Source of the DNA: Gammaproteobacteria bacterium
Lineage (GTDB): Bacteria; Pseudomonadota; Gammaproteobacteria; Steroidobacterales; Steroidobacteraceae
Direction of reading: 5' to 3'
NCBI GenBank assembly: GCA_028293725.1
Contig: JAQGOE010000145.1
Coordinates: forward strand, 1-39,579
DNA length: 39,579 nucleotides
Shown here: piece by piece, positions 299 through 24,193 of the stretch
Numbering within the stretch: the first letter of the stretch is position 1
Layout: each line of letters starts with the position of its first letter
Position numbers and translations under genes: made by a program
Notes under the pieces: model-generated
Databases searched by the model: none
What the model saw: the letters and a program-made list of their open reading frames with translations, nothing else
What the model was told of the DNA's origin: nothing

Positions 299-1186
299 GT
301 GTGCCCCGTCCAACCCGGTATCGTAGACCTACTGCGCGTGCGCCCACCACATAAGAGCTCCAGCCGCGCCGCAAAGAGCGCGCCTCGCAAGCAACTCGAC
401 GGCGACGCCACCGATCCGCTTTTCAACCAGACCGTACAGAAGGCCTTGAGCATTCTGGAGGTTTTTGGCAGTGAGAAGACCGCACTCAACCTTACGGAAA
501 TCGGTCTCGCGGTCGGTATGACCAAGAGCTCGGCGCAGCGCTGCACTCACACGCTGGAGCGTTTGGGTTATCTGCGCCGCGATCCGAAGGTGAAACGCTG
601 GGTTCTGACACCGCGCGCGCTGGGTATCGCACATGCGTATCTGTCCGGTCATGTGCTGCTCGAGCAGGCGACCACTCATCTCATCGATCTCAACCAGACC
701 TGCGGCGAGTCCGTCAGTCTGTCGGAGCCGGATGACACCGACATGGTGTATATCGCCCGGTTTCCCAGCCATAAGCGCTTTCTGATTCATATGCCGGTGG
801 GGCGCCGCCTGCCGATGTATTGCGCGGGCGCCGGGCGTGCCTACCTGTCCGCTTTACCACGTGCGGAGGCGCAACGGATCGTGCGTCGCTCGACGCTGCG
901 TCCGTTCACGCCGATGACGCTGACGGATCCGAAACAGATCCTGCGTCAGATCGACGCCGCCCGGGAGGCCGGTTATGCGTGGACCGCACAGGAATACTAC
1001 CGCGGCGACTTGACGATCGCGGCACCCGTGCTGGGGCCGGACGGTCTGCCGGTCGCGGCCATCAATATTTCAGCGCCGACGAGTCGTTGGACGCTCGAAG
1101 AAATGCGTAGCCAGTTATCCTCGGTGCTTCTCGAGACCGCGCGGGCGGCTTCGGGCAGCGTTGTCACTCGTCCCAGAGGTTCATGA
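299..1186 (+). CDS. IclR family transcriptional regulator
   Basis: A 295-residue regulator. An N-terminal winged helix-turn-helix (about residues 45-95, with LTEIGLAVGMTKSSAQRC as the recognition region) is followed by the IclR effector-binding domain to the C-terminus. IclR proteins bind small aromatic or carboxylic effectors and usually control adjacent catabolic operons. I chose GTG 299 because GGAAGG lies at 290-295; GTG 338 is an alternative without a visible ribosome site, and the ATG at 242 lies upstream of the predicted promoter. The stop overlaps the permease start as ATGA, so the regulator is co-translated with the transporter and the spermidine-dehydrogenase-like gene. It is therefore likely the local regulator of the amine locus. 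The effector is unknown. Confidence 0.88.
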   Translation: MCPVQPGIVDLLRVRPPHKSSSRAAKSAPRKQLDGDATDPLFNQTVQKALSILEVFGSEKTALNLTEIGLAVGMTKSSAQRCTHTLERLGYLRRDPKVKRWVLTPRALGIAHAYLSGHVLLEQATTHLIDLNQTCGESVSLSEPDDTDMVYIARFPSHKRFLIHMPVGRRLPMYCAGAGRAYLSALPRAEAQRIVRRSTLRPFTPMTLTDPKQILRQIDAAREAGYAWTAQEYYRGDLTIAAPVLGPDGLPVAAINISAPTSRWTLEEMRSQLSSVLLETARAASGSVVTRPRGS

Positions 1187-2547
1187 TGTCAGAGCTGAGT
1201 CGCTCACTGAAGCCGCGCCACATCGCCATGATTTCCATCGGCGGTATCATCGGTGCCGGGTTGTTTGTCAGTAGCAGCGCGGCCATCGCTGCCGCCGGGC
1301 CCGCGATCGTACTGAGCTATCTGATTACCGGAACGCTGGTGCTGCTGGTCATGCGGATGCTGGGTGAGATGGCGGTGGCACTGCCGAGCGTGCGGTCGTT
1401 TACCGACTTCCCGCGCGCGGGGCTCGGGCCTTGGGCCGGGTTCGTGGCGGGTTGGCTGTACTGGTATTTCTGGGTCATCACCGGGCCGGTCGAGGCGATC
1501 GCCGGCGCCAACATTCTGCATAGTTGGTTTCCGCAATTCTCGCTGCTGGAGCTCGGCATCGGTCTGATGGCCGTGATGACCGGCGTCAACTTGATGTCGG
1601 CACGCTCGTACGGCGAGTTCGAATTCTGGTTCTCGTCGATCAAGGTCGCGGCCATCATTGTGTTCATCGCCCTGGCGGGGGCGTATGCCTTCGGCTTCAC
1701 TTCGCCGCAGGGGCAGACATTCGGCAACCTCACCAGTCATGGCGGGTTTCTGCCGCATGGGTTCGTCGCGGTGTTGGCTGGTGCCGTAACGGTGTTTTTC
1801 TCTCTCACCGGTGCCGAGATCACGGTCGTGGCGGCTGCGGAGTCGAGTGAGCCGACGCGCGCTGTGGCGCGGATGTCGACGTCGGTGATCGTAAGGGTTC
1901 TTACGTTTTACGTGGGGTCGATTCTTTTGATCGTGTCGGTGGTGCCGTGGGATACGGTGAAGGTCGGTGAGTCGCCGTTCGCGGAAGCGCTGCTGACCAT
2001 GCATTTCGGGTGGGCCACTACGGCGATGCAGGCGATCGTGCTGACAGCGGTGTTGTCCTGCCTTAATTCGGCTTTCTATGTCTGCTCCCGGGTACTGTTC
2101 GTATTGGCCGAGCATGGTGACGCGCCCAAGGCGCTCGTGCGCCTGAACTCGCGGCGCGTGCCGGTGAATTCCGTCTGGATGAGCTCGCTGGCGGGTGTGT
2201 TGGGTATTCTGGCCGAAACCCAGGCGCCCCAGGCAGTGTTCGCTTTTCTGGTGAACGCCTCTGGCGCGCTCATCGTGTTTGTCTACATGATGGTGACCGT
2301 GGCGCAGATCCGTCTGCGACGGGAGCGCGAGCGCGCGGGAGGCCCGGCGCCGGCGCTGCAGATGTGGCTGTTTCCCTGGGCGAGTTATGCGGCAATTGCG
2401 GCGATGGTGGTGGTGCTCGTTGCCATGGCATTCACCGGGATGGCGAAAGACCTCTATGCGAGTATGGTCACCTTGGTGGTGGCGATCATTGCGTACCTGC
2501 TGGTTCGGGCTTGGCGCGGTTCCGCTGTGAGGTCGCCTGTAGCATGA
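1183..2547 (+). CDS. APC-superfamily amino acid permease (GABA/amino acid type)
   Basis: A 454-residue inner-membrane permease with about 12 hydrophobic segments. The first helix carries the GGIIGAGLFVSS motif that forms the broken substrate-binding helix of the amino acid-polyamine-organocation family (AAT subfamily, GabP/AnsP-like). Length matches the family. It most likely imports an amino acid or amine-derived acid by proton symport; substrate cannot be read from the sequence. The context of a spermidine-dehydrogenase-like enzyme and a PuuB-like oxidase makes GABA or a polyamine product attractive, but this is inference. ATG codons occur at 1183 and 1186; the first overlaps the IclR stop as ATGA. 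The 3' end overlaps the next gene in the same way at 2544-2547, so three genes form one coupled operon. Confidence 0.88.
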   Translation: MMSELSRSLKPRHIAMISIGGIIGAGLFVSSSAAIAAAGPAIVLSYLITGTLVLLVMRMLGEMAVALPSVRSFTDFPRAGLGPWAGFVAGWLYWYFWVITGPVEAIAGANILHSWFPQFSLLELGIGLMAVMTGVNLMSARSYGEFEFWFSSIKVAAIIVFIALAGAYAFGFTSPQGQTFGNLTSHGGFLPHGFVAVLAGAVTVFFSLTGAEITVVAAAESSEPTRAVARMSTSVIVRVLTFYVGSILLIVSVVPWDTVKVGESPFAEALLTMHFGWATTAMQAIVLTAVLSCLNSAFYVCSRVLFVLAEHGDAPKALVRLNSRRVPVNSVWMSSLAGVLGILAETQAPQAVFAFLVNASGALIVFVYMMVTVAQIRLRRERERAGGPAPALQMWLFPWASYAAIAAMVVVLVAMAFTGMAKDLYASMVTLVVAIIAYLLVRAWRGSAVRSPVA

Positions 2548-4430
2548 GCGAGCTGGGAGAAGATCGCGCGATTCCGCGGCGCGACTTTTTGCAAGGCGCG
2601 TTGGTAGCCAGTGCGATGGCTCTGACGGGGCCGCTGTTGAAAGCATATGCTGCTGACGGCACCGCGGCGCAGGATATGCCTGGGTACTATCCGCCGCTTC
2701 TCAACGGGATGCGAGGGAGTCATCCTGGGTCGTTTGAGACTGCGCATGCGTTGCGCGACGGTGGTGGGGCGCCGCGCGGTGTTGATACCGGCGAGTCGTA
2801 CGATCTGGTGGTGGTGGGTGCTGGAATCAGCGGTCTGTCGGCTGCGCAGTTTTTCCGCGCTCGCACAGCGCCCGGCGCGCGCATCTTGTTGCTCGACAAT
2901 CACGACGATTTCGGGGGCCACGCCAAGCGCAATGAGTTTCAACTCGGCGGCCACACGCAGTTGCTCAACGGCGGCACACAGTTGATTGAGAGTCCCAAGC
3001 CGTATGGTCCGGTCGCCGCGGGTCTCATTCGTACTCTTGGAGTCGATGTCGAGGCGCTTGCACACAAGGCGCATCCGAAGTTCTACAGTGAGATGGGCCT
3101 GCGTGAGGCGGTGTTTTTCGACCGCGAGACTTTTGGGACGGACAAGCTCGTGGCAGGCGAGCGCACTGAGAAGAAGGTCGTAGAGGCCTATCCCTTACCG
3201 GCTCGGACGCGCGAAGACATTTTGCGCATCGAGTCCGCGAGCGTCGATTTCATGCCGGGGGTGTCTTCGGCGGACAAGAAACTGCGGCTCTCGAAAATGA
3301 GCTACCGCGATTTCCTGCGGGATGTGGTCAAGGTCGATCCCATGACGCTGGCGTTCTACCAGGTGCTGACGCACGGACTGTGGGGTGTTGGTATCGATGC
3401 CGTCTCGGCGCTCGATTGCTGGGGCGTGGAGTTCCCCGGCTTCAAAGGTCTGAAACTGGAGCCCGGATCCATACCCCGGATGGGATTTACGCCGGCCGGT
3501 ACTGCCGATACCGGCGGCTCGAAGACGTTTCACTTTCCTGACGGGAATGCATCGATTGCGCGGCTCCTGGTGAGGAATCTTTTGCCTGACGCCGTGCCTG
3601 GCAGCACCGCGGAGGATATCGTGACGGCCCGGGTTGCCTATGACAGGCTCGATCGCGCGGTGTCGCCTGTCAGGCTGCGTTTGAGCAGCACGGTTATACG
3701 TGCCGTCAATGTGGGCGCGTCCGGTTCGGGTGGCGTTGAAGTCACTTACATCAGGGCGGGGAAGGCTTACACGGTCCGGGCACGCAATTGCGTGCTCGCT
3801 TGCTACAACGTGATGATTCCTTATCTGTGTCCGGAGTTACCCGCGGCGCAGAAAGCCGCCTTGCATAGCCTGGTGAAGACACCGCTCGTTTATACGAGCG
3901 TCGCGCTGCGGAATTGGGAGTCGTTCCAGAAACTCGGAGTGAGTGAGGTGTATGCGCCGGGGGGTTATCACTCGAGCTTCAATCTCAATTGGAATGTCAA
4001 TATCGGGAAGTATCGCAGCTCGGCTGCGCCGTCGGAGCCCATTCTCGTACATATGACGCGCACGCCGTGTCAGCCGGGGTTGACCGAGCCCGAACAGCAC
4101 AAGGTGGGGCGCGCCGAACTGCTGGCGACGCCGTTCTCGACATTCGAGCGGAATATCCGGGACCAGCTCGGACGTACGTTGGCTGGTGGAGGTTTCGATC
4201 CCGCACGTGACATTGAAGCGATTACCGTGAATCGGTGGCCGCATGGGTATGCGCCAGAGTACAACCCGCTGTTTGACCCTGACATACCTGCTTCCGAGCG
4301 GCCCAATGTGAAGGGACGGGCGCAGTTCGGGCGGATCGCCATCGCCAACTCGGATGCGGGCGGCGGTGCTTACACGGATGTGGCCATCGAACAGGCGGAT
4401 CGGGCCGTCAATGAGCTGTTGAAGAGCTGA
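2544..4430 (+). CDS. Tat-exported FAD-dependent oxidoreductase, spermidine dehydrogenase-like
   Basis: A 628-residue protein starting at ATG 2544, which overlaps the permease stop as ATGA. The start gives a Tat signal with the twin arginine at residues 12-13 (RRDFLQG), a hydrophobic stretch and an AYA cleavage-like site near residue 36. The mature protein has the YYPPLLNGMRGSHPGSFE segment characteristic of spermidine dehydrogenase (SpdH), and a dinucleotide-binding motif GAGISG at 92-97. SpdH enzymes oxidise spermidine at the secondary amine in the periplasm, passing electrons to the respiratory chain; the Citrobacter enzyme has been described as containing FAD and heme. Length (628) is close to Pseudomonas SpdH (about 620). 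The substrate could be another amine. Its 3' end overlaps the convergent cytochrome gene by 23 bases. Confidence 0.82.
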   Translation: MSELGEDRAIPRRDFLQGALVASAMALTGPLLKAYAADGTAAQDMPGYYPPLLNGMRGSHPGSFETAHALRDGGGAPRGVDTGESYDLVVVGAGISGLSAAQFFRARTAPGARILLLDNHDDFGGHAKRNEFQLGGHTQLLNGGTQLIESPKPYGPVAAGLIRTLGVDVEALAHKAHPKFYSEMGLREAVFFDRETFGTDKLVAGERTEKKVVEAYPLPARTREDILRIESASVDFMPGVSSADKKLRLSKMSYRDFLRDVVKVDPMTLAFYQVLTHGLWGVGIDAVSALDCWGVEFPGFKGLKLEPGSIPRMGFTPAGTADTGGSKTFHFPDGNASIARLLVRNLLPDAVPGSTAEDIVTARVAYDRLDRAVSPVRLRLSSTVIRAVNVGASGSGGVEVTYIRAGKAYTVRARNCVLACYNVMIPYLCPELPAAQKAALHSLVKTPLVYTSVALRNWESFQKLGVSEVYAPGGYHSSFNLNWNVNIGKYRSSAAPSEPILVHMTRTPCQPGLTEPEQHKVGRAELLATPFSTFERNIRDQLGRTLAGGGFDPARDIEAITVNRWPHGYAPEYNPLFDPDIPASERPNVKGRAQFGRIAIANSDAGGGAYTDVAIEQADRAVNELLKS

Positions 4431-5514
4431 CGTGGCAGGTGGAGCAGGCGCGGGTGGGCCCGTGTTTGTCGGTCGTTTGAGCCAGATCGGTGTGGCAGCT
4501 TCGGCAGAAGGTGTGGAAGGTGGCTTCCGCTGACTGGCTGAGGTTGGGTTGGGAAGAGCGATGGCATTCGAGGCAACTGCCGACGCCGGTTTTGTCTATG
4601 AAGTTGTGATGGCAGGTTACGCAGTCGACGGTGGTGTGCTTTTCGTGGGGGAAGTACACCGGGAGGAGGGACGGGGTCACTGCTGGCTGCAGTAGGTGCG
4701 ACGTGGCCGTGGGGATGGGGAGTAGGAATAGGAGCGCTGCCGCGACGCAGTTGGGGAGTAGGGTTGGTAGGAGTGGGAGGGGGGCCCTCGTAGGAGTGCC
4801 CGTGGGGGTGTGTTGGGAATTACCTTCGCGAGACTTTCGGCGCCGTAAGATGCGGAGGGCGGCCCATAAAAGCGGGAGCAACAGCAGGGCGCAGACGGTG
4901 ATGATTTTGGCGGGCTTGTTGGCGAGTTGATGGCTTCCCAGGATGTGGGCGGCGATGAGCGTCAGTAGAAGGGCCGCGAGGATGGCGTGGGTTGAGACGC
5001 TGGGTGGGAGCGCGCGCGCCGCAGATGCGGTGGACGAGGGTGCGCCTGGAGTCTTGCGAGTGTGCGATTCGCCTGCTGTGGTGCGGCGGGTTGAGGCGCT
5101 TCGCAAGGCGGATCGGGCCGCGAGCCCGGTCGCTACCAGGATCGCGAGGGCGATGAGGGCGATGAGGCCGAGCAGCATGTAAAGCGGGGCCGAGGGGAGC
5201 AGGTAGTGGCCGATCAGCGGCTGCGATACGAGGAGGATCGCGGCGTGCAGAAGACCGAGGACGAGGGCGATCCAGCCGATGCGGCGGTGTTGCGTCAATG
5301 TGAAGAGTCGCTTGTGCGGCAGGCCTTCACCGCGCAGCGGATATAGATATAACGTGATGGCGACGACCAGGGCCGCGTAGCCCAAAGCGATGCCGATGTC
5401 CCAGAGGACTCCGCCGGAGGCCGGCAACGGGCACAGTAGGAGCGCGGCGACCAGGGCGCACGCGAGGCCAATGCGGCGCACCAGTGAGGGGCGATGATGT
5501 GTTGTCGGGCTCAT
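4408..5514 (-). CDS. membrane protein with ferric-reductase/cytochrome b-like helices and a C-terminal tetraheme cytochrome c domain
   Basis: A 368-residue protein. The first two thirds contain about six to eight hydrophobic helices with scattered histidines (for example HKRLFTLTQHRR and GLLHAAIL), resembling a ferric-reductase or cytochrome-b-like membrane domain. Near residue 287 comes a cytochrome c3/c7-like tail with four CxxCH heme motifs: CVTCH 298-302, CLECH 314-318, CRSCH 337-341 and CSTCH 357-361. A preceding FPHEKH segment could supply distal heme ligands. It may move electrons between a membrane quinol or heme site and the periplasm. Its convergent overlap with the spermidine-dehydrogenase-like gene makes it a plausible electron partner, but the two are on opposite strands. 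The fusion and partner role are inference; the heme motifs are directly visible. Confidence 0.78.
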   Translation of the reverse strand: MSPTTHHRPSLVRRIGLACALVAALLLCPLPASGGVLWDIGIALGYAALVVAITLYLYPLRGEGLPHKRLFTLTQHRRIGWIALVLGLLHAAILLVSQPLIGHYLLPSAPLYMLLGLIALIALAILVATGLAARSALRSASTRRTTAGESHTRKTPGAPSSTASAARALPPSVSTHAILAALLLTLIAAHILGSHQLANKPAKIITVCALLLLPLLWAALRILRRRKSREGNSQHTPTGTPTRAPLPLLPTLLPNCVAAALLFLLPIPTATSHLLQPAVTPSLLPVYFPHEKHTTVDCVTCHHNFIDKTGVGSCLECHRSSQPNLSQSAEATFHTFCRSCHTDLAQTTDKHGPTRACSTCHVSSSTAH

Positions 5515-5582
5515 GCGTGAGTTGCCGCGGGGGAGTATCGCGTTTGACCTACCGGTTGCGCTGCCTTAGAGTCCGGCGAATC

Positions 5583-5607
5583 GCGATAGTACTGTATCGA
5601 TTATCGC
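5583..5607. promoter_or_regulatory. inverted repeat upstream of the PuuB-PQQ-MauED operon
   Basis: GCGATA (5583-5588) and TATCGC (5602-5607) form a perfect 6-base inverted repeat with a 13-base spacer. It sits in the 121-base divergent gap between the cytochrome gene and the PuuB-like gene. The right half contains ATCGATTATCG (5596-5606), which also occurs within the 17-base palindrome at 18484-18500. It is a candidate operator; the regulator is unknown. Confidence 0.35.
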
Positions 5608-5635
5608 ACTCTGCATATCAAATTTATCTGCGCCT

Positions 5636-6973
5636 ATGCCGACCCACGGTCGTGACGTGAACGCGAATTCGAGCCAATCGCTATGGGCGGCGACGGCCGC
5701 GCCGGGGCCGGAGTTGGGGCGCCTCGCGGGCGAGCAGCGGGCTCAGGTTACCATCATCGGCGGCGGCTATACGGGGCTGTCGACTGCGCTCCATCTGGCG
5801 GAAGCCGGGCGCGCTGCCGTGGTGCTGGAAGCGGCCGATGTAGGTGAGCGGGCTTCCGGCCTCAATGGCGGGCAGGTTATTCCGGGCGTGAAGTACGATC
5901 CGGACACTCTGGAAGAGATGTTTGGTACGGAGCTCGGACGGCGGCTGGTCGAGACGGTCGCCCGCGGACCGGATCTGGTTTTCGAGCTCATTCGTAAGTA
6001 CGAAATCGCTTGCGACGCCGTCCGGAAGGGTTGGATCCAACCTGCCACCTCTGAGGCCGCGTTGGGTGGGCTACGCTCGCGCGTGGAGCAATGGCACCGT
6101 CGTGGTGCGCCTGTCGCCATGCTTACGCGGGAAGAGACCGCCAGACTGACCGGCTCGAGCCGTTATTGCGGCGGCTGGATCGACCGGCGGGGCGGCACGG
6201 TACAGCCTCTCTCTTATGTACGAGGGCTGGCCTTCGCGGCGTTACGCAACGGCAGTCGGATTTTTCAGCAGAGTCCGGCGACGAAGCTCTCCCGTTCCGC
6301 CGGGGAGTGGCGGGTAGAGACTCCTCTCGGCAGTGTTACGAGTCCGGTCGTCGTTCTGGCGACGGACGCCTACGCCGATCAGGTTGTGGACGTCGTACGA
6401 CGTACCATTGTGACGGTGCCGTCGTTTCAGGTTGCCACGGCGCCGTTGTCGAGCGAATTGCTCCGGTCCATTCTACCGGAGAGGCAATCGGCGTCCGACA
6501 CCTGGCATCTGTTGCGTTACTTCCGTCTCGACGCGACGGGCCGTCTGTGTATGGGCTCGCGTGGGATGTTTGGTAACGCTCCCCTTGCGGTACAAGCGCG
6601 CCATCATTATCGCGCGGTGCGCGAAATCTATCCGCAACTCGATGGCGTCCCTTACGACTATCACTGGGGTGGCCTCGTGGCTATCACCCGGGATCACCTG
6701 CCACGTCTGCAGGAGGTGGCGCCGGGTCTGTTGGCGGGCTTTGGTTATAACGGCCGCGGCGTGGCGATGGCGACCATGATGGGGTCGCTGTTGGCGCGTT
6801 GGTCCTCCGGGCAACCGGCGGAGGAGTTGGGGTTCCCGGTTACGGAGGTCGATCCGTTGCCGCTGCACGGGTTCAGCCAGTTCGGTGCGCGGGTCACCGT
6901 GCAGTATTTACGTACCCTCGATGGCCTCGCGCGCATGCGAGAGAAGCTGGCGGCTTCCCGGAGAACGGCATGA
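5636..6973 (+). CDS. FAD-dependent oxidoreductase, PuuB-like (DAO family)
   Basis: A 445-residue flavoprotein with no signal peptide, so probably cytoplasmic. It begins with the SLWAATA segment typical of gamma-glutamylputrescine oxidase-like proteins, followed by the FAD-binding GGGYTG (residues 42-47) and SGLNGGQVIPG (74-84), where most relatives have SGRNGG. The C-terminal FGYNGRGVAMATMMG is the FAD-contacting end of the DAO fold. PuuB oxidises gamma-glutamylputrescine in putrescine breakdown; other relatives oxidise small secondary or primary amines. No PuuA, PuuC or PuuD homologue is visible nearby, so the exact substrate is unknown. It is the first gene of an operon: its stop overlaps the PQQ dehydrogenase start as ATGA. 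No clear ribosome site precedes ATG 5636. Confidence 0.82.
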   Translation: MPTHGRDVNANSSQSLWAATAAPGPELGRLAGEQRAQVTIIGGGYTGLSTALHLAEAGRAAVVLEAADVGERASGLNGGQVIPGVKYDPDTLEEMFGTELGRRLVETVARGPDLVFELIRKYEIACDAVRKGWIQPATSEAALGGLRSRVEQWHRRGAPVAMLTREETARLTGSSRYCGGWIDRRGGTVQPLSYVRGLAFAALRNGSRIFQQSPATKLSRSAGEWRVETPLGSVTSPVVVLATDAYADQVVDVVRRTIVTVPSFQVATAPLSSELLRSILPERQSASDTWHLLRYFRLDATGRLCMGSRGMFGNAPLAVQARHHYRAVREIYPQLDGVPYDYHWGGLVAITRDHLPRLQEVAPGLLAGFGYNGRGVAMATMMGSLLARWSSGQPAEELGFPVTEVDPLPLHGFSQFGARVTVQYLRTLDGLARMREKLAASRRTA

Positions 6974-9096
6974 AGATGTTGAGAGTTGGGGTGGTGGGGA
7001 TGCTCCTGTGCGGATCGTGCTTCGCGCAGGGCTCCGGGGAGTCCTCGCAGTGGCCGGCGGCCGGGCGGGATGCGGAGGGAACTTACTATTCGCCGTTGGG
7101 GCGGATCAATGACAGGAACGTCGGCACTCTCGGCTTTGCGTGGGAGTACCGGACAGGTACTTTCCGCGGGTTGGAGGCGACGCCCATCGTCGTCGACGGG
7201 ACGATGTACACCTCGGGAAATTGGGGTGTGGTGTATGCGTTGGATGCCGCCACGGGCAAGGCGCGTTGGACTTTTGATCCGCAGAATAACGGGCAGGTGG
7301 GGCGGTTCACCTGTTGTGATGTCGTGAATCGTGGTGTCGCGGTGTGGAAGGGGCGTGTGTATGTCGCTTCCCTGGATGGCCGGCTGATTGCGTTGGATGC
7401 GCGCGACGGCAAGCCTGTCTGGTCCGTGGACACGCTGATCGATCATAAGCAACCCTATTCCGTAACCGGGCTGCCGCAGATCGCAGGTGGCGTGGTCGTG
7501 ATTGGTAACAGTGGCGCCGATATGGGCAAGGGCGGGGTGCGGGGCTACGTGACAGCTTACGACCTCATATCGGGCGAGCAGCGTTGGCGCTTTTTCACAG
7601 TCCCCTCGCGAAGCGATTCGCAGCCGGATGCCTCCATGAAGGCTGCTTTGTGGTCCTGGGATGCGAAAAGCGATCCGCGTGGTGGCACCGTGTGGGCGGG
7701 TATGTCGTACGACCCGGAGTTGAATTTCGTCTACATCGGCACCGGTAATGCTTCGCCGTATCAGGAGCGGGGGCGTAACCCTTCCGGCGCTCACGGCGAT
7801 GATCTTTACGCGTGCTCGATCATTGCTCTCGATGCGGCCACCGGCAAGCTCGCCTGGTATTACCAGACGACGCCGGGCGATAACCTGGACCAGGACGCCG
7901 ACGCGCCTTTCGTGCAGGCCACTTTGAAAGTCGGCGGACACGCACGCAATGTACTCATGCAGGCTTCGAAGAACGGCTTTTTTTATGTGCTGGATCGCAA
8001 GACCGGCGAGTTGATTTCCGGCAAGCCCTATACGTACGTCAACTGGGCGACGGGACTGGATGCGCGCGGCCGACCCGTCCTCACCAAAACAGCCAACTAC
8101 CGGGAGGAGCCGCAGCTCATCTATCCGAATTACAACGGCGGCCATAGTTGGATACCGATGTCCTACAGCGCGCAAACTCACCTGGTCTATATACCGGTGA
8201 TCGATGCGCCCATGGTGTGGGTCGATCTCTACAACAAGCCGATTCAGTACGTCGAAGGAACGTTCGCGGTCGGCGGGTTTCCCATGGACAAGACGTACGA
8301 TCCGCAGGGTCTCGAGTCTTCATTCGGGAAGCTACCCGCGTTCAAGGACGGGCGGGGCCCACGTCATGTCACTCATAACTTGCTGCGCGCCTGGGATCCG
8401 ATTAGACAAACCACCGTGTGGGAGCACGAGACCTCACGAGACTATCTCGTCTACGACGGAGGAGTGCTTTCGACCGGAGGTAACCTTGTGCTGCAGGGAG
8501 GGATCGACGGATCGTTCAATGCCTATGCGGCGGACACCGGTCGGGTTCTGAAGAAGTTGCAGACAGGTGTGGGGACTATGGCGGCGCCGATGACTTATGA
8601 AGTCGCGGGCGTTCAGTACGTCGCCGTCATGCAGGGGTATGGCGGGGGCGCCATTGGCAGTGAATTCCCGCCGTTCTCGGCGGGCGCCCATTATATGAAC
8701 GAGGGGCGGATCATCGCGTTTCGTCTTGGCGGTGGCGCGGTGCCGCTGCCTCCGCCGCAACCCAAGGTGGTTTTCCAACAGCCGGCGCCGCGGGCCGGAT
8801 CGGCTGCGGATATCGATCGGGGTGGTAGTCTCTACACGACTCATTGCGCACGGTGCCACGTGTTTGGTGTGGGACCCTTGCCGGACCTGCGAAGGATTCC
8901 GCCGGACATCAGCAATATTTTCGATGACATCGTGTTGCACGGGCGGTTGGCCTCGCTGGGGATGGGGCGGTTCGATGATCTGCTGAGCCCGGCCGACGTC
9001 GCGGATATCCATGACTACCTCATCGGGGAGGCTTGGAAGGCGTTCACAGCGCAACAGGCAGCGTCCGCGGCCGGCGCGGGTGCGCGGCCGCACTGA
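6970..9096 (+). CDS. PQQ-dependent quinohemoprotein dehydrogenase (alcohol/amine-type, exported)
   Basis: A 708-residue protein that starts at ATG 6970 inside the ATGA overlap. A signal peptide (about residues 1-19) precedes an eight-bladed PQQ propeller. Visible PQQ features are LEATPIVVDG (Glu69 region), the vicinal cysteine pair CC at 115-116 followed by DVVNRG, GTGNASP (Asn260) and the catalytic-Asp region PGDNLDQD (Asp307). A C-terminal cytochrome c domain carries CARCH at 626-630. Such enzymes oxidise alcohols or related substrates in the periplasm and pass electrons through heme c. Two metal-site features are unusual: Asp184 occupies the expected Glu ligand region (GNSGADMG), and Asp309 lies two residues after Asp307, a hallmark of lanthanide-using relatives. 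The WDYD aromatic residues are replaced (LDQD). The substrate is unknown. Confidence 0.88.
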   Translation: MKMLRVGVVGMLLCGSCFAQGSGESSQWPAAGRDAEGTYYSPLGRINDRNVGTLGFAWEYRTGTFRGLEATPIVVDGTMYTSGNWGVVYALDAATGKARWTFDPQNNGQVGRFTCCDVVNRGVAVWKGRVYVASLDGRLIALDARDGKPVWSVDTLIDHKQPYSVTGLPQIAGGVVVIGNSGADMGKGGVRGYVTAYDLISGEQRWRFFTVPSRSDSQPDASMKAALWSWDAKSDPRGGTVWAGMSYDPELNFVYIGTGNASPYQERGRNPSGAHGDDLYACSIIALDAATGKLAWYYQTTPGDNLDQDADAPFVQATLKVGGHARNVLMQASKNGFFYVLDRKTGELISGKPYTYVNWATGLDARGRPVLTKTANYREEPQLIYPNYNGGHSWIPMSYSAQTHLVYIPVIDAPMVWVDLYNKPIQYVEGTFAVGGFPMDKTYDPQGLESSFGKLPAFKDGRGPRHVTHNLLRAWDPIRQTTVWEHETSRDYLVYDGGVLSTGGNLVLQGGIDGSFNAYAADTGRVLKKLQTGVGTMAAPMTYEVAGVQYVAVMQGYGGGAIGSEFPPFSAGAHYMNEGRIIAFRLGGGAVPLPPPQPKVVFQQPAPRAGSAADIDRGGSLYTTHCARCHVFGVGPLPDLRRIPPDISNIFDDIVLHGRLASLGMGRFDDLLSPADVADIHDYLIGEAWKAFTAQQAASAAGAGARPH

Positions 9097-9111
9097 GGTC
9101 GATGCGGTATC

Positions 9112-9663
9112 ATGACGTTTATGATGCTGGACCCCGCCGTCGGACTTTTATTGGTGGCTACTTTCGCGCTGCTGTTCGGGAGCGCCGCTGTCCATAAGCT
9201 GCGCGATTGGCGACGATTCGACGAGATATTTTCTGCGTACGGGGTGGTGCCTGCGATTTCGCGCTGGCGGCTATCGTGGGTGGTGCCGGCTCTTGAATTG
9301 GCTGTTGCGGTGGGTTTGCTCCTCGATGCCAGCCGTCTCTATGCGGTTGTTGTCGGGAGCATGCTGCTATTGGCGTATGCCTCGGCTATCGGCATCAATC
9401 TGCGGCGGGGTCGTCGCGACCTCGCGTGTGGCTGCGGTGGCCCGGACGAGCGGCGGCCGATTGCACCCTGGATGGTCTGGCGGAACATTGTTCTGGCGCT
9501 GGGTCTGGCGAGTACGTTGGTGCAGTGGACGGGACGGCCTCTCGTTTTTACGGACGCGGTGACCATAACGTTCGGGCTGGGGACTCTCGCGCTCATCTAT
9601 CTGTGTATCGATCAACTCATGGGTTACGTGCAGCGTGCCGCCCATTTGCGAGGCTCGCGATGA
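9112..9663 (+). CDS. mauE: MauE-like membrane protein (DoxX/MauE family)
   Basis: A 183-residue protein with four to five hydrophobic helices. It carries the MauE signature region CGCGG followed by PWMVWRN (about residues 105-125) and an N-terminal SAAVHKLRDW motif shared with DoxX/MauE proteins. In methylamine and aralkylamine dehydrogenase operons, MauE and MauD are needed for stable production of the cysteine-rich, TTQ-bearing small subunit, probably through periplasmic disulfide chemistry. Here the gene follows the PQQ dehydrogenase by 15 bases and overlaps mauD as ATGA at 9660-9663. No TTQ subunit gene is visible, so its client may be the PQQ enzyme or a protein encoded elsewhere. Confidence 0.82.
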   Translation: MTFMMLDPAVGLLLVATFALLFGSAAVHKLRDWRRFDEIFSAYGVVPAISRWRLSWVVPALELAVAVGLLLDASRLYAVVVGSMLLLAYASAIGINLRRGRRDLACGCGGPDERRPIAPWMVWRNIVLALGLASTLVQWTGRPLVFTDAVTITFGLGTLALIYLCIDQLMGYVQRAAHLRGSR

Positions 9664-10253
9664 CGGCCCTGGCTATTTCCAACATTGTACTGTGGATTGT
9701 CGTGCTGGCTTTGCTGGCCGTGGTGTTGGCGTTGACGAGGCAACTCGGCGTGCTTCATGAGCGTATCGCGCCGGTGGGGGCGCTCATGCTGAATCGCGGG
9801 CTTGCGGTCGGTGAGCAGGCGCCGCTGATGGATGTCGTCGATCTCGCGGGCGCTCACGTCAAGTTGGGGTCGCCGCGGAGCGATGGAAAAAGTACGTTGC
9901 TGCTGTTCGTGTCGCCGACATGTCCGGTTTGCAAATCGCTGCTGCCTGTCGTCAAGTCCAGCGGGAAAGACGAGCGGGATTGGCTGGATGTCATCCTGGC
10001 CAGTGATGGGGATCCGGATGAGCATCGCGCGTTTGCGCAGGCCAATGGGTTGGAGGGGGTGCCGTATGTGGTTTCGGCGCCCTTGGGGATGACTTACCAG
10101 GTGAGCCGGTTGCCGTTCGCGGCGCTGCTCGACGAGGCGGGGGTGCTGCGGGCGCGGGGGTTGGTGAACTCGCGGGAGCACCTGGAGAGTTTGTTCGAGG
10201 CTAAGCGGTTGGGGGTGGCTTCGATTCAGGATTATTTTGCGAAGGGGAAGTGA
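9660..10253 (+). CDS. mauD: MauD-like membrane-anchored thioredoxin-fold protein
   Basis: A 197-residue protein starting at ATG 9660 in the ATGA overlap with mauE. An N-terminal anchor helix (about residues 5-26) is followed by the LHERIAPVGALMLNRGL segment typical of MauD. The redoxin domain carries the active-site motif CPVC at 88-91. The C-terminal NSREHLESLFEAK and GVASIQDY stretches are also strongly MauD-like. MauD is thought to act as a periplasmic disulfide oxidase or isomerase for the amine dehydrogenase small subunit. In the known mau and aau clusters a light-chain gene follows mauD. Here the next gene is on the opposite strand and encodes an unrelated small protein, so the usual client is missing. 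Confidence 0.88.
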   Translation: MTALAISNIVLWIVVLALLAVVLALTRQLGVLHERIAPVGALMLNRGLAVGEQAPLMDVVDLAGAHVKLGSPRSDGKSTLLLFVSPTCPVCKSLLPVVKSSGKDERDWLDVILASDGDPDEHRAFAQANGLEGVPYVVSAPLGMTYQVSRLPFAALLDEAGVLRARGLVNSREHLESLFEAKRLGVASIQDYFAKGK

Positions 10254-10274: not shown

Positions 10275-10703
10275 TTATCGACCGCGCCTGGAGAGTAACC
10301 CCATGCGTGTCCCGATGTGGTTGGCGATCAGAGGCGATGCGGCGGGGCTCGCTACGACCAAAAGCGGGCGCACGGGTACCCCTGCGGAGTCCCGAGTTCC
10401 GGACTCTGTGCGGGTAGTGCAGCTCTCGGGCTCGATGGTAGAGCGCTGTCTATTCCGGAACGTGGGCTCGAACGCATGCATTCTGGCCAACCAGACTTCT
10501 GCCAGCCGCACAGCATGGCGGGTCTGCTCGGTGTCGCCAACCTGGTAGAGATCGATTGCCTTATCGGCCCACTCGCACGCCTTGCTCTGTGCCTCTGCGA
10601 AGGTCGGGTTGTGGATCGGATCGGGTGAAACGCGCGCCCGCGCGTCATAGGCGCGAGCGGGCCGGAATTCCGCTCGTCCGAGTTTGATTGCGGTGTCTGC
10701 CAT
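10275..10703 (-). CDS. small hypothetical protein
   Basis: A 142-residue protein of unknown function. A strong ribosome site, AGGAGA, lies about nine bases before ATG 10703, supporting translation. The first 90 residues look like a helical, charged, genuine protein (ACEWADKAIDLYQVGDTEQ, then a leucine/alanine-rich helix). The last 50 residues are low in hydrophobic pattern and may not be conserved, so the true protein could be shorter in relatives. No signal peptide or membrane segment is visible. It lies convergent to mauD with a 21-base gap and does not look like a TTQ light chain, having only two cysteines. Confidence 0.5.
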   Translation of the reverse strand: MADTAIKLGRAEFRPARAYDARARVSPDPIHNPTFAEAQSKACEWADKAIDLYQVGDTEQTRHAVRLAEVWLARMHAFEPTFRNRQRSTIEPESCTTRTESGTRDSAGVPVRPLLVVASPAASPLIANHIGTRMGLLSRRGR

Positions 10704-10968: not shown

Positions 10969-12801
10969 CTACCAGCCGACGGCTTGGCCATCTTTGCGGT
11001 GATCTGAGGCGGCGCGGTATAGGCCTGCTACGGGTTGGTCCGGCGCGTGCGCTGCTGCTTGTGCCGCGGTGGGAGCCGCAGACGGAGTCGGCGTGAACCA
11101 GATCGACTGGAAGCCTCCCATGTCCTCGCCGTTGGCTGACTTTACCTTGTGGCCCATTGCGGCCAGCTGGGCTCCGACGAGGTCGTACAGGCTGGATTCG
11201 AGATCCAGGGTGTTGGATTCTTGCGCGTGGGTGAAGCGCGCTGCGTCGCTGGCGGCCTGTGCGTTGGCGCCGAGGTCGATCATGTCGACGAGTACCTGCG
11301 CGTGGCCTTGCGCCTGTTGGCTGCCGCCCATGAGTCCGAAGGCCATGACGGGTTGACCGTCCTTCATGAGAAACCCCGGCAACAGGGTATGGAACGGCCG
11401 CTTATGCGGGGCGATGATGTTGGGGCTCTTGGGGTCGAGTGAGAACAGCGCGCCACGGTTGTTCAACACGAAGCCGTAGCCCGGAACGGTGATGCCGGAA
11501 CCGAAGGTGTCGTAGACGCTGTAGATGAATGACACCATGTTGCCCCAGCGGTCGGCGACTGTCAGATAGACGGTGCCCCCGACCGGATCGCCCTTGGGCG
11601 CGGGTGTGGCGGCTTTCTTTGGATCGAGGCGTCCGCAGAGCTCGCCGGCGTACGCTTTCGAGATGAGCCGCTGGGTCGGGATCTGCGTAAAGCCCGGGTC
11701 GCCGTTGTAGGCGTAGAGATCGGTGTAGGCGAGCTTCTTCGCTTCGACGAGCAGATGCCAGTACTCGGGTGAGCGGGGGCCGAGTGTGGCGAGGTTCATT
11801 CCGAGCTTGGGTGCGCAGACTTCGAGGATGTTCATCATCTCGAGTACGGCAAATCCCTGCGTGCTCGGGGGCATCTCGTAGACGTCATATCCGTGGTAGT
11901 TGGTTGTGAGTGGCGTTTCCCACGTCGCGTGAGTGTCCGCGAGGTCCACCAGCGTCATGGTGCCGCCGGCAGTGTGTGTCTTGGCTACGATGGCCTTGGC
12001 GATCTCGCCTTTGTAGAACACGTCTCGACCCTGTACCTGCAACAGTCGGAAGGTGTGAGCGAGGTCGGGATTGCGGAATAGTGAGTAGGTGGCTGGCGGC
12101 TTGCCGTTCACGAGGTAGGTTTGGACGGAATCGGGATCGTTCGATAGAACCTCGGCGCCGTAGATCCAATCGTTGCGGATGCGCTCGGTGATGCCGAAGC
12201 CTTGCTCCGCCAGGGTCGCGGCGGGCTCGAGCGTTTCCTTGAATGTCATGGTGCCGGCGCGTTTGAGGAGGATGTCCCAACCGTCGACGGCACCCGGGAC
12301 TGTCACGGACTCGATGCCATGGAGGGGCATTTTCGATTTGACGCCGCGCTTCGCAAGACGCGCCGGTGTTGCCCCGGTGGGCGCGCGTCCGCTGGCGTTC
12401 AGGGCGATGAGCTTCTTTTCCTTGGCGACCCAGGCTATTACGAAGACGTCACCGCCGACGCCGGCGCTCTGGGGCTCGACTACATTCAGGACGGCTGCGG
12501 TTGCTACCGCAGCATCGAAGGCGTTGCCGCCTTGTTTCAGGATCTGAAGTCCGGCCTGTGCGGCGAGCGGTTGGCTGGTGGCAACTACGCCGTTGCGTGC
12601 AAGGACTTCTGAGCGAGTTTGGGAGAGCCAGCCGCTGGTACGGTCGCCGCGGACGGCTGTGAAAGTTTGGGGGGTGCCGCTGGGGGCCGAACCGTTGGGT
12701 GACGCATCGCTTTGGGCTGCGTCGGCGTTCGCCGCGAGGAGGGTGACCGTTACGGAAAGAGCCATGACTTTGAGGCGAGACGGGCGGCGGCGACGGATCA
12801 T
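10969..12801 (-). CDS. gamma-glutamyltransferase / gamma-glutamyl hydrolase family, exported
   Basis: A 610-residue precursor with a signal peptide (about residues 1-28, ending ANADA). The Ntn-hydrolase domain begins with ARNGVVATSQPLAAQAG and the glycine-rich AVEP-type region VEPQSAGVGGD. The likely autoprocessing nucleophile is Thr410 in GGTVYLTVAD, which would give a large chain of about 380 residues and a small chain of 201. The C-terminal GGSQQAQGHAQVL motif is the GGT oxyanion/substrate region. These enzymes cleave or transfer gamma-glutamyl groups from glutathione and related amides in the periplasm, or act as acylases. GAGGGA-like purines before ATG 12801 support the start. It is monocistronic in appearance, divergent from the oxygenase gene. 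The exact acyl preference cannot be read. Confidence 0.9.
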   Translation of the reverse strand: MIRRRRPSRLKVMALSVTVTLLAANADAAQSDASPNGSAPSGTPQTFTAVRGDRTSGWLSQTRSEVLARNGVVATSQPLAAQAGLQILKQGGNAFDAAVATAAVLNVVEPQSAGVGGDVFVIAWVAKEKKLIALNASGRAPTGATPARLAKRGVKSKMPLHGIESVTVPGAVDGWDILLKRAGTMTFKETLEPAATLAEQGFGITERIRNDWIYGAEVLSNDPDSVQTYLVNGKPPATYSLFRNPDLAHTFRLLQVQGRDVFYKGEIAKAIVAKTHTAGGTMTLVDLADTHATWETPLTTNYHGYDVYEMPPSTQGFAVLEMMNILEVCAPKLGMNLATLGPRSPEYWHLLVEAKKLAYTDLYAYNGDPGFTQIPTQRLISKAYAGELCGRLDPKKAATPAPKGDPVGGTVYLTVADRWGNMVSFIYSVYDTFGSGITVPGYGFVLNNRGALFSLDPKSPNIIAPHKRPFHTLLPGFLMKDGQPVMAFGLMGGSQQAQGHAQVLVDMIDLGANAQAASDAARFTHAQESNTLDLESSLYDLVGAQLAAMGHKVKSANGEDMGGFQSIWFTPTPSAAPTAAQAAAHAPDQPVAGLYRAASDHRKDGQAVGW

Positions 12802-14389: not shown

Positions 14390-16303
14390 TCAGTTTGACC
14401 CTACCCACATTTCGACCTGGTCGGAATCTCGCTGATAGACCGTCCGGCCACCTACGACCGTGAGCAGCACCTTCACGTCCGCGATCTGGCGTGGCGAGCT
14501 CTTGAGCAGGTTCCGGTCGATCACAATGAGGTCGGCGAGTTTGCCCACCTCGAGAGAGCCAATATCGCGCTCCGCGTGTAATTCGTAAGCGGAGTTGGCT
14601 GTTATGGCTCTTATAACAGCGGGCACGGTCAGTCCGACGTCGGTACTCAATCGACCGGCGTACTTCGGTCCGGCGTCTGGATCATTCTCGCGCGTCACGC
14701 CGACTTTCAGTGCGAACCATTCATCGAGACGGTCCACCGGCCAATCGCTTCCGTAGGCGATACGAGCGCCGGCGGCGGCCAGATAACCTGCCGGCTCGAG
14801 GTATTTGAAGCGCGTGGGACCCATGTAGTCCTGAGAGCCGTCGAGGGTGTCCGCGGCTGGCTTTTCCCACTGGAACGACAGGACTGGGATCGCCCCCAAC
14901 TTCACGTAGCGGGGAAAGTCCGTCGGAGTCACGATCTCATCGTGGGCGATCGCGGCCCGGATGGAGGTCTCCGGAAATTCTTTGCGCATCGCTTCGATGG
15001 CATCCAGAGCTTCGTGGACGGCGCGATCGCCGTCGGCGTGCATGTGGGGCTCAATGCCGTTGCGTGCGAGGCCGAGCAGGATGGCTTTGAGCGTTGGCGC
15101 GGGGAAGTAGACGGGAGGGCCGCGATCGTTACCCGGTTCCCAGCGCGGCGCGGTTGGCGTGCCCTGATTGGTGAAGTAGGGTTCCAACATGGCACCGGTG
15201 AAGGCGGGCGCTGCAATAACGCCGTCCAGAAACAACTTCGTGTTGTGGACGGATATGGTGGGGGCGGGCTGCGCCGCGCCCTGATCGAATTTGACTGCGA
15301 TGGCTTTGACGGCCGCTACAGCCTTGTCGGGATCAAGATCAGCGGCCGGGCGGATCGGTACTGCGAAATGACCGCGCGCGGTCAGTCCACCGCTTTGCTG
15401 GACCTTGGTGAAGGATTCGATGTCGACGTTTTCGGCGTCAGCATCCAGGAACGTGGTGATTCCCTGTTTGCGAAGCGCGTCCAGGGCGGCGCGAGCGGCG
15501 GCGACGCTCTCTTCCGGGGTCGGCGGAGGAATGAGTTTCATCACCATGTTGTAGGCGGCGTCTTCCAAGATGCCGGAAGGCTGTCCGGCGGCGTTGTGTT
15601 GAATCTTGCCGCCTACGGGGTCATGGGTACCGGCTTCTACGTGGCCGAGTTTCAGGGCGCGCTTGTTCGCGAGGACCGAGTGCCCGAAGGACGACATGAC
15701 CGCGATCGGTCGTTTTGTCTTGAGTGCGTCGAGCGTTTCATGGGTCAGTTCGGTCCCTGCCGGGATCATGTCCTGCTGAAACCAGTTCACGACTTCGAGC
15801 CATTGATCGGGCTCGCGGTCCCGGGTCTTGTCGAGGCAGTCCTGGATATGGGACTGGAACTGCGCCACGGTAAGGCGCTCGTAGTTCAGGTTGCACTTGA
15901 GAAGTTGGACGCCGCCTTCCTGGGGGTGCATGTGGCCGTCGACAAGACCGGGCATCATCATGCGGCCGTGGAGGTCGAGTACTTGGGTCGCGGGACCGGC
16001 CATTGCTTTGGCAGCGGCGTTGGAACCGACGTAGGCGATGCGGCCGTCGTGGACGACGAGGGCTTCTGCCACGGTGTCGTGGTCATCAACGGTGTAGACG
16101 TAGCCGTTGAAGTAGATCGTGTCGCGGCCGCTGGTTGTAGCGGCCGTGGCTGATTCGGGCGCCGCGGGTGCCTGGGCGGCTGCTGATGCGGGCGGAGCAG
16201 CTTTGGTCTTGGCAGCGTTGTGCACCTGTATCGCAGCGAAGATCGAGATCGCCACGACGCTAAACAACACAGCGTGCAGCCCTTTATATTTGGTCAGCGC
16301 CAT
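14390..16303 (-). CDS. exported or membrane-anchored amidohydrolase, YtcJ-like (second of tandem pair)
   Basis: A 637-residue metallohydrolase of the amidohydrolase superfamily (YtcJ/NfdA-like). I chose ATG 16303 because it gives a hydrophobic N-terminal segment (residues 9-27) followed by an Ala/Pro-rich linker. The catalytic domain has the DGHMHP motif (His124 and His126), later histidines in EPHMHADGD and AAIAHDE, and the terminal metal-ligand Asp in AYGSDWPVD. The C-terminal DIGSLEVGKLADLIVID is the usual closing beta segment. Family members cleave N-formyl or amide bonds, but substrates are very varied. The start overlaps the 3' end of the upstream amidohydrolase by 20 bases, indicating a two-gene coupled operon. 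Confidence 0.88.
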   Translation of the reverse strand: MALTKYKGLHAVLFSVVAISIFAAIQVHNAAKTKAAPPASAAAQAPAAPESATAATTSGRDTIYFNGYVYTVDDHDTVAEALVVHDGRIAYVGSNAAAKAMAGPATQVLDLHGRMMMPGLVDGHMHPQEGGVQLLKCNLNYERLTVAQFQSHIQDCLDKTRDREPDQWLEVVNWFQQDMIPAGTELTHETLDALKTKRPIAVMSSFGHSVLANKRALKLGHVEAGTHDPVGGKIQHNAAGQPSGILEDAAYNMVMKLIPPPTPEESVAAARAALDALRKQGITTFLDADAENVDIESFTKVQQSGGLTARGHFAVPIRPAADLDPDKAVAAVKAIAVKFDQGAAQPAPTISVHNTKLFLDGVIAAPAFTGAMLEPYFTNQGTPTAPRWEPGNDRGPPVYFPAPTLKAILLGLARNGIEPHMHADGDRAVHEALDAIEAMRKEFPETSIRAAIAHDEIVTPTDFPRYVKLGAIPVLSFQWEKPAADTLDGSQDYMGPTRFKYLEPAGYLAAAGARIAYGSDWPVDRLDEWFALKVGVTRENDPDAGPKYAGRLSTDVGLTVPAVIRAITANSAYELHAERDIGSLEVGKLADLIVIDRNLLKSSPRQIADVKVLLTVVGGRTVYQRDSDQVEMWVGSN

Positions 16304-18434: not shown

Positions 18435-18483
18435 CGGCTGACTCCCGGGCTGCACGCGCGGCATCGCGGCGGGCCCTGTGGGT

Positions 18484-22273: not shown

Positions 22274-22303
22274 CTTATCGCTGATCGTTGCGGGGACTGT
22301 CAA
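22274..22303 (-). promoter_or_regulatory. sigma70-like promoter for the MFS transporter
   Basis: On the reverse strand, TTGACA (22303-22298), an 18-base spacer and GATAAG (22279-22274) match the sigma70 consensus at 6/6 and 4/6. Transcription would begin near 22267, which supports a translation start downstream at TTG 22180. Confidence 0.5.
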
Positions 22304-22347
22304 AAATGCCTGATAAGAGAATTGTGTCTCCGTGTGTAAACAAAGGC

Positions 22348-22353
22348 TATACT
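22348..22353 (+). promoter_or_regulatory. -10 element just upstream of the DauA-like gene
   Basis: TATACT lies nine bases before ATG 22363, so the transcript would start within a few bases of the start codon and be essentially leaderless. No good -35 box is seen at 16-18 bases; TTGTGT is present at 20 bases. The call is tentative. Confidence 0.35.
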
Positions 22354-22362
22354 GGCGGCCTT

Positions 22363-23490: not shown

Positions 23491-23512
23491 TGAGGTTTGA
23501 TCGCCCGAGAAC

Positions 23513-24193
23513 ATGAAAAAGCACAGTACCAAACGCTCGAAGAACAGCTCGAGCGAGCGCAGCACGTTGGGAAGTTTGATCAGCCTGGTCCGGGAACGCA
23601 ACGGCTGGACGTTACGCGAGATGAGCGACAAGGTGGGGATTCCACTGTCGACACTGGCGAAGGTCGAGGCGGACAAGCTGTCATTGACCTATGACAAGTT
23701 GCAGCAGTTCACCTCCCGGCTGGGGATGACGCTGGCCGACTTTCTGGCCCAGGCTGACACGCCGGCCGCGGGCGCGGCGCCGCCTGTCTTCACCGCGCGC
23801 CGCAGCCTGACGGGTAACGGCAACTCCATTCAAGTTTCCACGCCGAACTACGATTACCAGTACCTGTGTGCGGACCTGCGCGAGAAGCGCATGGTTCCGA
23901 TGATCACACGCATCCGGGCTCACGACATCAAGGAGTTTGGTGAACTGATACGGCACCAGGGTGAGGAGTTCATCTACGTCCTGGAAGGCACGATCGAAGT
24001 GCACCTGCAGTTCTATACGCCAGTGACTCTTTCCGTGGGGCAGGGCATTTACCTCGACAGCTCCATGGGTCACGCCTACACCGCGAAGGATTGTGAGAGT
24101 GCCCTGGTGATGGGGGTGTGCTCGAGCGAAGACCCTGACCTTGCGCGCGCGCTGATCAGCCTGGCGGAGCACGAAGCGGCACAGGTTGAGTGA
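23513..24193 (+). CDS. XRE-cupin transcriptional regulator
   Basis: A 226-residue protein with a basic, serine-rich N-terminal tail. An XRE-type helix-turn-helix follows (about residues 20-75; LREMSDKVGIPLSTLAKVE is the recognition region). The C-terminal cupin domain (about 125-212) shows GELIRHQGEEFIYVLEGTIE and a second motif around DSSMGHAYTAKD. XRE-cupin proteins, such as PuuR and the SutR/PauR group, commonly regulate polyamine or amino acid catabolism using a small ligand in the cupin. It lies 22 bases after the DauA-like gene and is likely co-transcribed, so it probably senses that enzyme's substrate or product. Its last 38 bases overlap the convergent YkvI-like gene. Confidence 0.88.
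   Translation: MKKHSTKRSKNSSSERSTLGSLISLVRERNGWTLREMSDKVGIPLSTLAKVEADKLSLTYDKLQQFTSRLGMTLADFLAQADTPAAGAAPPVFTARRSLTGNGNSIQVSTPNYDYQYLCADLREKRMVPMITRIRAHDIKEFGELIRHQGEEFIYVLEGTIEVHLQFYTPVTLSVGQGIYLDSSMGHAYTAKDCESALVMGVCSSEDPDLARALISLAEHEAAQVE

Follow-up and report, generated by a model that had tools for sequence, protein, structure and literature searches.

In the present study, we analysed a stretch of 39,579 nucleotides (GenBank contig JAQGOE010000145.1) from an uncultured bacterium of soil type, probably close to the Steroidobacteraceae, here called the window (39.6 kb), and within it an amine-oxidation locus at positions 299-10253. The new aspect of this locus is its mosaic make-up: MauE and MauD, known to help methylamine-type dehydrogenase mature, are encoded in one operon with a pyrroloquinoline quinone (PQQ) quinohaemoprotein. 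The sequence-only reading had reported that the gene for the small subunit of a tryptophan tryptophylquinone (TTQ) amine dehydrogenase was missing from the region, and this holds: neither MauA nor MauB was found within the 39.6 kb. As to the protein that MauE and MauD serve, we lean slightly towards a TTQ amine dehydrogenase encoded outside the window, to which we give a little under an even chance, over the PQQ enzyme itself.

The locus is made up of two tightly packed forward units with one divergent minus-strand gene between them, an arrangement read from the 4-bp gene overlaps at 1183, 2544, 6970 and 9660 and from the 15-bp gap between the PQQ and MauE genes. The first unit holds an IclR-family regulator, an APC/GABA-type (gamma-aminobutyrate) permease and an SpdH-like flavoprotein. 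The second holds a DAO-family oxidase, the PQQ quinohaemoprotein, MauE and MauD, and the divergent gene encodes a tetrahaem membrane protein. All genes that had been named from the letters of the DNA were found by Pfam and NCBIfam matches and by the coordinates of their open reading frames (ORFs). MauE (9112..9663, plus strand) is a membrane protein with a C-x-C motif formed by Cys106 and Cys108 (PF07291, 90 bits, cut-off 27), and MauD (9660..10253, plus strand) is a membrane-anchored thioredoxin-like protein with the motif CPVC formed by Cys88 and Cys91 (TIGR02661, 222 bits, cut-off 189). These active-type thiols were invariant in the proteins aligned, namely ten MauE, five of them from TTQ-bearing genomes, and nine MauD.

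MauE, MauD and a client outside the window

MauD was followed in three samples, and was found in 8 of 299 genomes of Pseudomonadota, in 12 of 369 genomes of one class taken as Gammaproteobacteria, from inspection by eye of ribosomal-protein and SecY sequences, and in 10 of 250 genomes of one order within it. Pooled, these give 29 different MauD genomes with 33 mauD places; one genome (G207) was in both of the first two samples, and some genomes without a match also overlap. The MauA family (PF02975) was present in all 29 genomes (8/8, 11/11 and 10/10), in one of them (G599) only as a 40-residue piece at a contig end, and MauD without MauA was seen in none of these sampled genomes. MauA lay directly downstream on the same strand at 27 of the 33 mauD places. 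At four of the other six it was on the same contig at a distance of 5 kb or less (G680, G664, G807 and G534:C194), at one the contig ends inside mauD (G534:C106), and at one (G307) mauB-mauE-mauD is on one contig and mauA on another. The last case shows that unlinked MauA occurs, since its mauA is on a separate contig from mauB-mauE-mauD. Places where mauD has no mauA close by do exist, but are uncommon.

The layouts of these exceptions differ. In G307 (L072, 5589-9404) the order is aldehyde dehydrogenase-mauB-mauE-mauD, with mauA not in the cluster. In G680 (L106, 7314-11152) and G664 (L107), mauED is convergent to the aauB-aauA-cytochrome operon and outside it. An apparent co-occurrence of PQQ and MauD genes in G534 was rejected: a contig-end MauD fragment lies near a quinohaemoprotein, with an opposite-strand reading frame (thiamine pyrophosphate-enzyme-like by eye) between them. 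In the plasmid collection, MauD was found in 34 records and MauA in 30, not all MauD rows being listed and the records not being paired one by one; no MauD was found in viral contigs.

The window's MauED clade is broad, with at least 120 MauD proteins at 84-100% and at least 120 MauE proteins at 68-95% identity to those of the window. It appears much wider than the clade of the PQQ enzyme, a comparison that is suggestive only, since clustering at 90% can hide members. Named Steroidobacteraceae among the matches listed gave two MauD and one MauE, and the window MauD is 96% identical to one of these MauD proteins (P0124). The ratio of MauD to MauE identity in nine window-clade pairs (for example 86:71) was within the range of ten TTQ-linked pairs (82:60, 85:67 and also 90:86), and because the divergence is alike, the MauED pair is under ordinary constraint. 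In the MauD tree, 21 window-clade rows stood apart from 32 TTQ-linked rows on a long stem, which tells for neither client. Furthermore, related quinohaemoproteins (E 1e-120 or better) were found in 28 genomes of the sample of 299 Pseudomonadota, and 26 of the 28 are without MauD at E 1e-10. Thus, such quinohaemoproteins do not generally need MauD, which argues against adoption of the pair by the PQQ enzyme.

A TTQ client elsewhere is favoured because all 29 MauD genomes carry MauA, unlinked MauA occurs in G307 and the MauED clade is wide, and likewise because of the 26 quinohaemoprotein genomes without MauD, the ordinary MauD:MauE divergence and the tetrahaem homologues beside TTQ clusters described below. 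MauE and MauD, which keep their thiols, would then most likely still carry out disulfide exchange for a TTQ amine dehydrogenase whose genes lie outside the window, and their position beside the PQQ gene would have arisen secondarily and been inherited within one lineage.

Several observations weigh against a TTQ client elsewhere. For the source organism, represented by the 39.6 kb window, no TTQ gene was seen. A six-frame search of these 39.6 kb, for which three MauA proteins and three correctly translated MauB proteins were taken from the sampled loci, gave chance-level matches only (best E 0.03). As a control, the same search recovered MauA in 30 and MauB in 29 of 31 regions, some of the queries having been taken from the control regions themselves. 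MauA was on the same contig within 5 kb at 31 of the 33 mauD places, and only two places were without it. None of the 29 MauD genomes falls in the tight MauD clade of the window, the best identity being 63%. Finally, the contig sizes given in the next section lead us to infer that, in two or more diverged relatives, PQQ and MauE are encoded on the same contig, which exceeds what chance neighbours would give. The 715-bp gap that follows MauD was also examined for a remnant of MauA, which was ruled out; the six small ORFs in this gap had no Pfam match at E 1, and no MauA-like score was obtained. Overall, by a rough estimate of ours, a genome without MauA and a genome with MauA elsewhere are close to equally probable. 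On the earlier proposal that MauED had been adopted for another client, the evidence is divided: the absence of MauA and MauB from the window and the apparent co-location of PQQ and MauE genes in two relatives speak for it, and the MauA of every MauD genome and the greater width of the MauED clade speak against it.

The PQQ quinohaemoprotein as the alternative client

The second reading, which we consider possible and less likely than the first, is that MauE and MauD were taken over to mature the PQQ quinohaemoprotein (6970..9096, plus strand). MauD recharged by MauE would form the Cys115-Cys116 disulfide in the periplasm, or would keep Cys282 from mispairing. The gene arrangement fits this reading, with the 15-bp gap between PQQ and MauE, the 4-bp overlap of MauE and MauD, the intact thiols of both proteins and no MauA or MauB found in the window. 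Compared with TTQ operons (mauB-mauE-mauD-mauA-cytochromes c), the locus shares adjacent MauE and MauD genes with intact thiols, whereas MauA, MauB and small cytochromes c were not found in it and the PQQ gene stands directly before mauE, in the place held there by MauB, which favours this reading. A mauBEDA operon is described in Methylacidiphilum, and no link between MauE and a PQQ enzyme was seen in the part of that source covered here (PMC2474590); within the open-access literature, we found none linking MauE with PQQ enzymes.

The PQQ protein exceeds its family cut-off (TIGR03075, 506 against 480 bits), and its nearest solved relatives are the quinohaemoprotein alcohol dehydrogenases (ADHs) 1YIQ (529 bits) and 1KV9. 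The features of such enzymes are present, namely the PQQ propeller, the vicinal pair Cys115-Cys116, the catalytic Asp in Asp307-x-Asp309 and a fused CxxCH at 626-630. The propeller with the Cys-Cys pair and the fused haem-c domain are shared with the type II ADHs (1YIQ, 1KV9 and 1KB0). The window protein differs from these in having Leu for Trp before the catalytic Asp and in a gene that precedes MauED. Two residues set it apart from both 1YIQ and 1KV9: an Asp instead of Thr two positions after the catalytic Asp, which makes a D-x-D of the lanthanide type, and the extra Cys282 instead of Ser. The D-x-D motif has been described as a lanthanide mark (PMC11996626), and Asp307-x-Asp309 may point to a lanthanide rather than calcium in the active site of this enzyme as well, although the motif is common. 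This motif had at first, from 30 sequences, been read as a special mark of the window's PQQ clade, which was ruled out by its presence in 115 of 140 aligned quinohaemoprotein rows, the window included.

Among the 120 matches listed, six PQQ clusters were at least 79% identical to the window's, and the window protein forms one clade with P0001-P0006 (Shimodaira-Hasegawa-like approximate likelihood ratio test, SH-aLRT, 100; quick tree). Against the genome contigs, the window PQQ protein matched three loci, the best at 46% identity. All seven clade members carry Cys282, which is present in 11 of the 140 rows overall. A supported clade with this cysteine throughout favours the PQQ enzyme as client, but four rows outside the clade also have it (P0066, P0070, P0072 and P0103, which were not in the quick tree). 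The vicinal Cys-Cys pair is of less help to this reading: it is present in all 140 aligned quinohaemoproteins, yet 26 of the 28 genomes with such proteins are without MauD. In addition, the mature part of the PQQ enzyme has five cysteines, whereas three MauA proteins, counted with their leaders, have 14 each. MauA holds six disulfides.

Co-location in relatives was read from equal sizes and sources of the contigs behind protein-database entries, where gene order is not shown. The PQQ list held 120 entries with 118 distinct contig sizes and the MauE list 120 entries with 115. Two PQQ-MauE matches were found, P0005 with P0321 (4,132 bases, both ncbi) and P0006 with P0290 (4,264 bases, both jgi). 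For the six nearest PQQ clusters, two observed matches compare with 0.03 expected, and 0 of 600 shifted comparisons reached two, which supports the PQQ enzyme as client; as a control, the MauE and MauD lists shared 19 contig sizes against 2.5 expected. Identity is 89% between P0005 and P0006 and 88% between P0321 and P0290, as expected of one contig pair. To the window's proteins, the former are 82% and 80% and the latter 72% and 73% identical. Against the PQQ enzyme as client stand the reading of co-location solely from contig sizes and several missing matches. Among the entries listed, P0001-P0004, four of the six nearest PQQ clusters, had no MauE match and P0005 and P0006 had no MauD match, and the long contigs with both MauE and MauD (182,039, 36,692, 12,742 and 5,830 bases) had no PQQ contig match. 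PQQ and MauD entries agree in size only once (8,629 bases, from different sources), which is no more than chance would give, with 0.4 expected. Of the order PQQ-mauE-mauD, whose conservation was in question, the joining of PQQ and MauE seems, by equal contig sizes, to hold in two relatives, while the order itself and MauD were not seen there.

The MauE linkage is on both sides of the first split of the PQQ clade, and so it is probably ancestral to this clade. In the MauE tree (a quick tree rooted at the midpoint, with 46 of its 118 inner branches left open), the two PQQ-linked rows fall in another clade than the window, with unmatched long-contig rows between. This patchy appearance of the PQQ linkage would suit a rearrangement remnant, in which gene shuffling put the PuuB-PQQ genes upstream of MauED with no functional coupling. 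The overlapping and closely spaced genes and the linkage on both sides of the first split favour maintenance instead, and we hold a mere remnant to be the least likely of the explanations considered.

The tetrahaem membrane protein and TTQ operons

The divergent gene (4408..5514, minus strand) encodes a membrane protein with a C-terminal tetrahaem c3-type domain (PF02085, E 5e-12; four CxxCH motifs) and a weak match to PF01794. Homologues were found at TTQ operons of two lineages, a Paracoccus sp. SMMA_5_TC plasmid and the genomes G197 and G200. In G197, the c3 domain is 39% identical (E 6e-21, from a single comparison), with a weaker match of the membrane domain, and the gene is beside an aauB-mauE-mauD-aauA cluster with one regulator-like reading frame between. 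G200 also has a tetrahaem match, and its MauD is 97% identical to that of G197. Only three of 72,556 plasmid records match the tetrahaem protein. On the SMMA_5_TC plasmid the homologue is split over two genes that close a mauB-E-D-A-cyt-cyt operon. The second match is on a plasmid of equal size from strain SMMA_5, and for the third, pAMI4 of P. aminophilus, the annotation shows no mau gene within 9 kb. By TTQ clusters, a ferric-reductase-like membrane domain is found repeatedly with a tetrahaem c3 domain, the two being fused or encoded by separate genes (L018, 11477-12388; L197, 8280-9273). It is possible that this protein is a membrane electron acceptor for amine dehydrogenases.

From these comparisons, the tetrahaem protein appears to be an occasional, independent companion of TTQ amine dehydrogenases, and because its homologues adjoin TTQ clusters in two lineages, it and MauED look like accessory genes of the TTQ type. 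The accessory set (tetrahaem protein, MauE and MauD) would thus be kept in the window, with the catalytic subunits replaced by, or at least neighbouring, the SpdH-like protein, the DAO oxidase and the PQQ enzyme. In a bolder form, which we consider rather doubtful, a TTQ operon was rebuilt on another quinone cofactor: a D-x-D PQQ enzyme with an extra Cys replaced the TTQ subunits, and the kept MauED and tetrahaem acceptor now mature and drain it.

MauED could also serve another exported protein, either the tetrahaem membrane cytochrome or a putative partner rich in Cys and encoded beyond the window. For the cytochrome speak the divergent placement of its gene relative to the MauED operon and its homologues by TTQ clusters, but the attachment of haem to CxxCH is normally served by the cytochrome c maturation proteins, and 32 of 34 fetched regions, most of which hold mauD, are without a tetrahaem homologue at E 1e-5, the two exceptions being those of G197 and G200. 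A precedent for a non-TTQ role is given by candidate clusters for ribosomally synthesised and post-translationally modified peptides in Streptomyces, which hold MauE homologues, one of them with MauD, in genomes described as without other mau orthologues (PMC7794033). There, as in the window, MauE and MauD are outside a mau operon; the setting is peptide clusters in Streptomyces and an oxidoreductase operon here. Altogether, such a client seems improbable to us, though slightly less so than the remnant.

The SpdH-like flavoprotein, the DAO oxidase and the amine pathway

The SpdH-like protein (2544..4430, plus strand), a Tat-type flavin adenine dinucleotide (FAD)/haem-b flavocytochrome, has the spermidine dehydrogenase SpdH of Pseudomonas aeruginosa as its best solved relative (7d9i, 483 bits over residues 10-625). 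With this enzyme (PDB 7D9F-7D9J) it shares near full-length homology, the FAD fold and a leader of the twin-arginine translocation (Tat) type. The ligands of the surface haem b reported for the P. aeruginosa enzyme, His54 and His562 (PMC12564564), align with His68 and His567 of the window protein, so that both are kept. The leader contains the Tat-type motif PRRDFLQG, and the Pfam TAT_signal match was weak (18.8 bits, cut-off 22.7). With cytochrome c or an artificial electron acceptor, SpdH reportedly oxidises spermidine, giving 1,3-diaminopropane and pyrroline (PMC12564564). Relatives were found in 14 plasmid records, of which four loci were opened. In one of these, from Deinococcus, SpdH is encoded with an APC permease, gabT and succinate-semialdehyde dehydrogenase. 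A c-type cytochrome is beside SpdH in the Duffyella locus, an FAD oxidoreductase, amino-acid transporter genes and an aldehyde dehydrogenase are near it in Sphingobium, and no evident amine genes were seen in the Novosphingobium locus.

The first gene of the second unit encodes a PuuB/AmaA-like DAO flavin oxidase (5636..6973, plus strand; PF01266, E 6e-66). A DAO domain is common to AmaA, the gamma-glutamylputrescine oxidase PuuB and this protein. The best NCBIfam model was that of L-pipecolate oxidase AmaA (NF050086, 349 bits), and no PuuB-named model was among the 21 NCBIfam families listed. Since the AmaA score falls short of its cut-off of 600 bits, the substrate was left unassigned. The description of this gene as PuuB-like is hence loose, although a DAO-family oxidase is present. 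The oxidase was taken as cytoplasmic, no signal peptide being evident by eye.

The kept haem ligands of the SpdH-like protein and the gene neighbourhood in Deinococcus support the view, put forward from the letters of the DNA, of a mixed periplasmic and cytoplasmic locus for amine or polyamine oxidation, as judged by sequence comparison. In the pathway that we infer, a Tat-exported SpdH would split spermidine-like amines in the periplasm, and the PQQ quinohaemoprotein would oxidise the resulting amino-aldehyde or a related alcohol. Electrons would exit via the b and c haems, and the tetrahaem membrane protein is a plausible acceptor for them. Uptake of an amino-acid product, for example GABA, would fall to the permease, and imported substrate would be acted on by the DAO oxidase in the cytoplasm.

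Other features of the locus and the window

The first unit begins with the IclR-family regulator (299..1186, plus strand; PF01614, E 6e-38, and PF09339), whose GTG start at 299 follows the earlier annotation, the mechanical ORF running from 242. The APC amino-acid/GABA-type permease follows with a 4-bp overlap (1183..2547, plus strand; PF00324, E 6e-100) and scores 454 bits with the GABA permease model TIGR01773, under its cut-off of 678. The tetrahaem gene and the oxidase operon diverge from an intergenic region (5515..5635) in which a promoter scan gave one promoter-like site (5544-5572), a count no higher than in shuffled sequences.

Upstream of position 299, a photolyase-like reading frame in the opposite direction was recognised by eye. 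In the gap after mauD, a minus-strand ORF (10275-10703) with an internal start at MADTAIK had no Pfam match. A gamma-glutamyltransferase is encoded on the minus strand 715 bp past MauD (10969-12801); gamma-glutamyl intermediates would fit a Puu-type pathway, but the gene is on the other strand. Two adjoining minus-strand Amidohydro_3 hydrolases of 660 and 726 residues are located at 14390-18464, and no NCBIfam cut-off was reached among the models shown. A second amino-acid/amine oxidation pair in the window, at 22288-24193, is made up of a D-arginine dehydrogenase of the DauA kind (343 bits to 3NYC) and, after it, a PuuR-like regulator with helix-turn-helix and cupin domains (45 bits, under the cut-off).

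Conclusion

The locus described here joins polyamine breakdown, quinohaemoproteins of the lanthanide type and a tetrahaem membrane protein that recurs by amine dehydrogenases. If the PQQ enzyme is the true client of MauE and MauD, it would be a simpler client than MauA, and it would reveal a role of this pair in the general handling of periplasmic disulfides.

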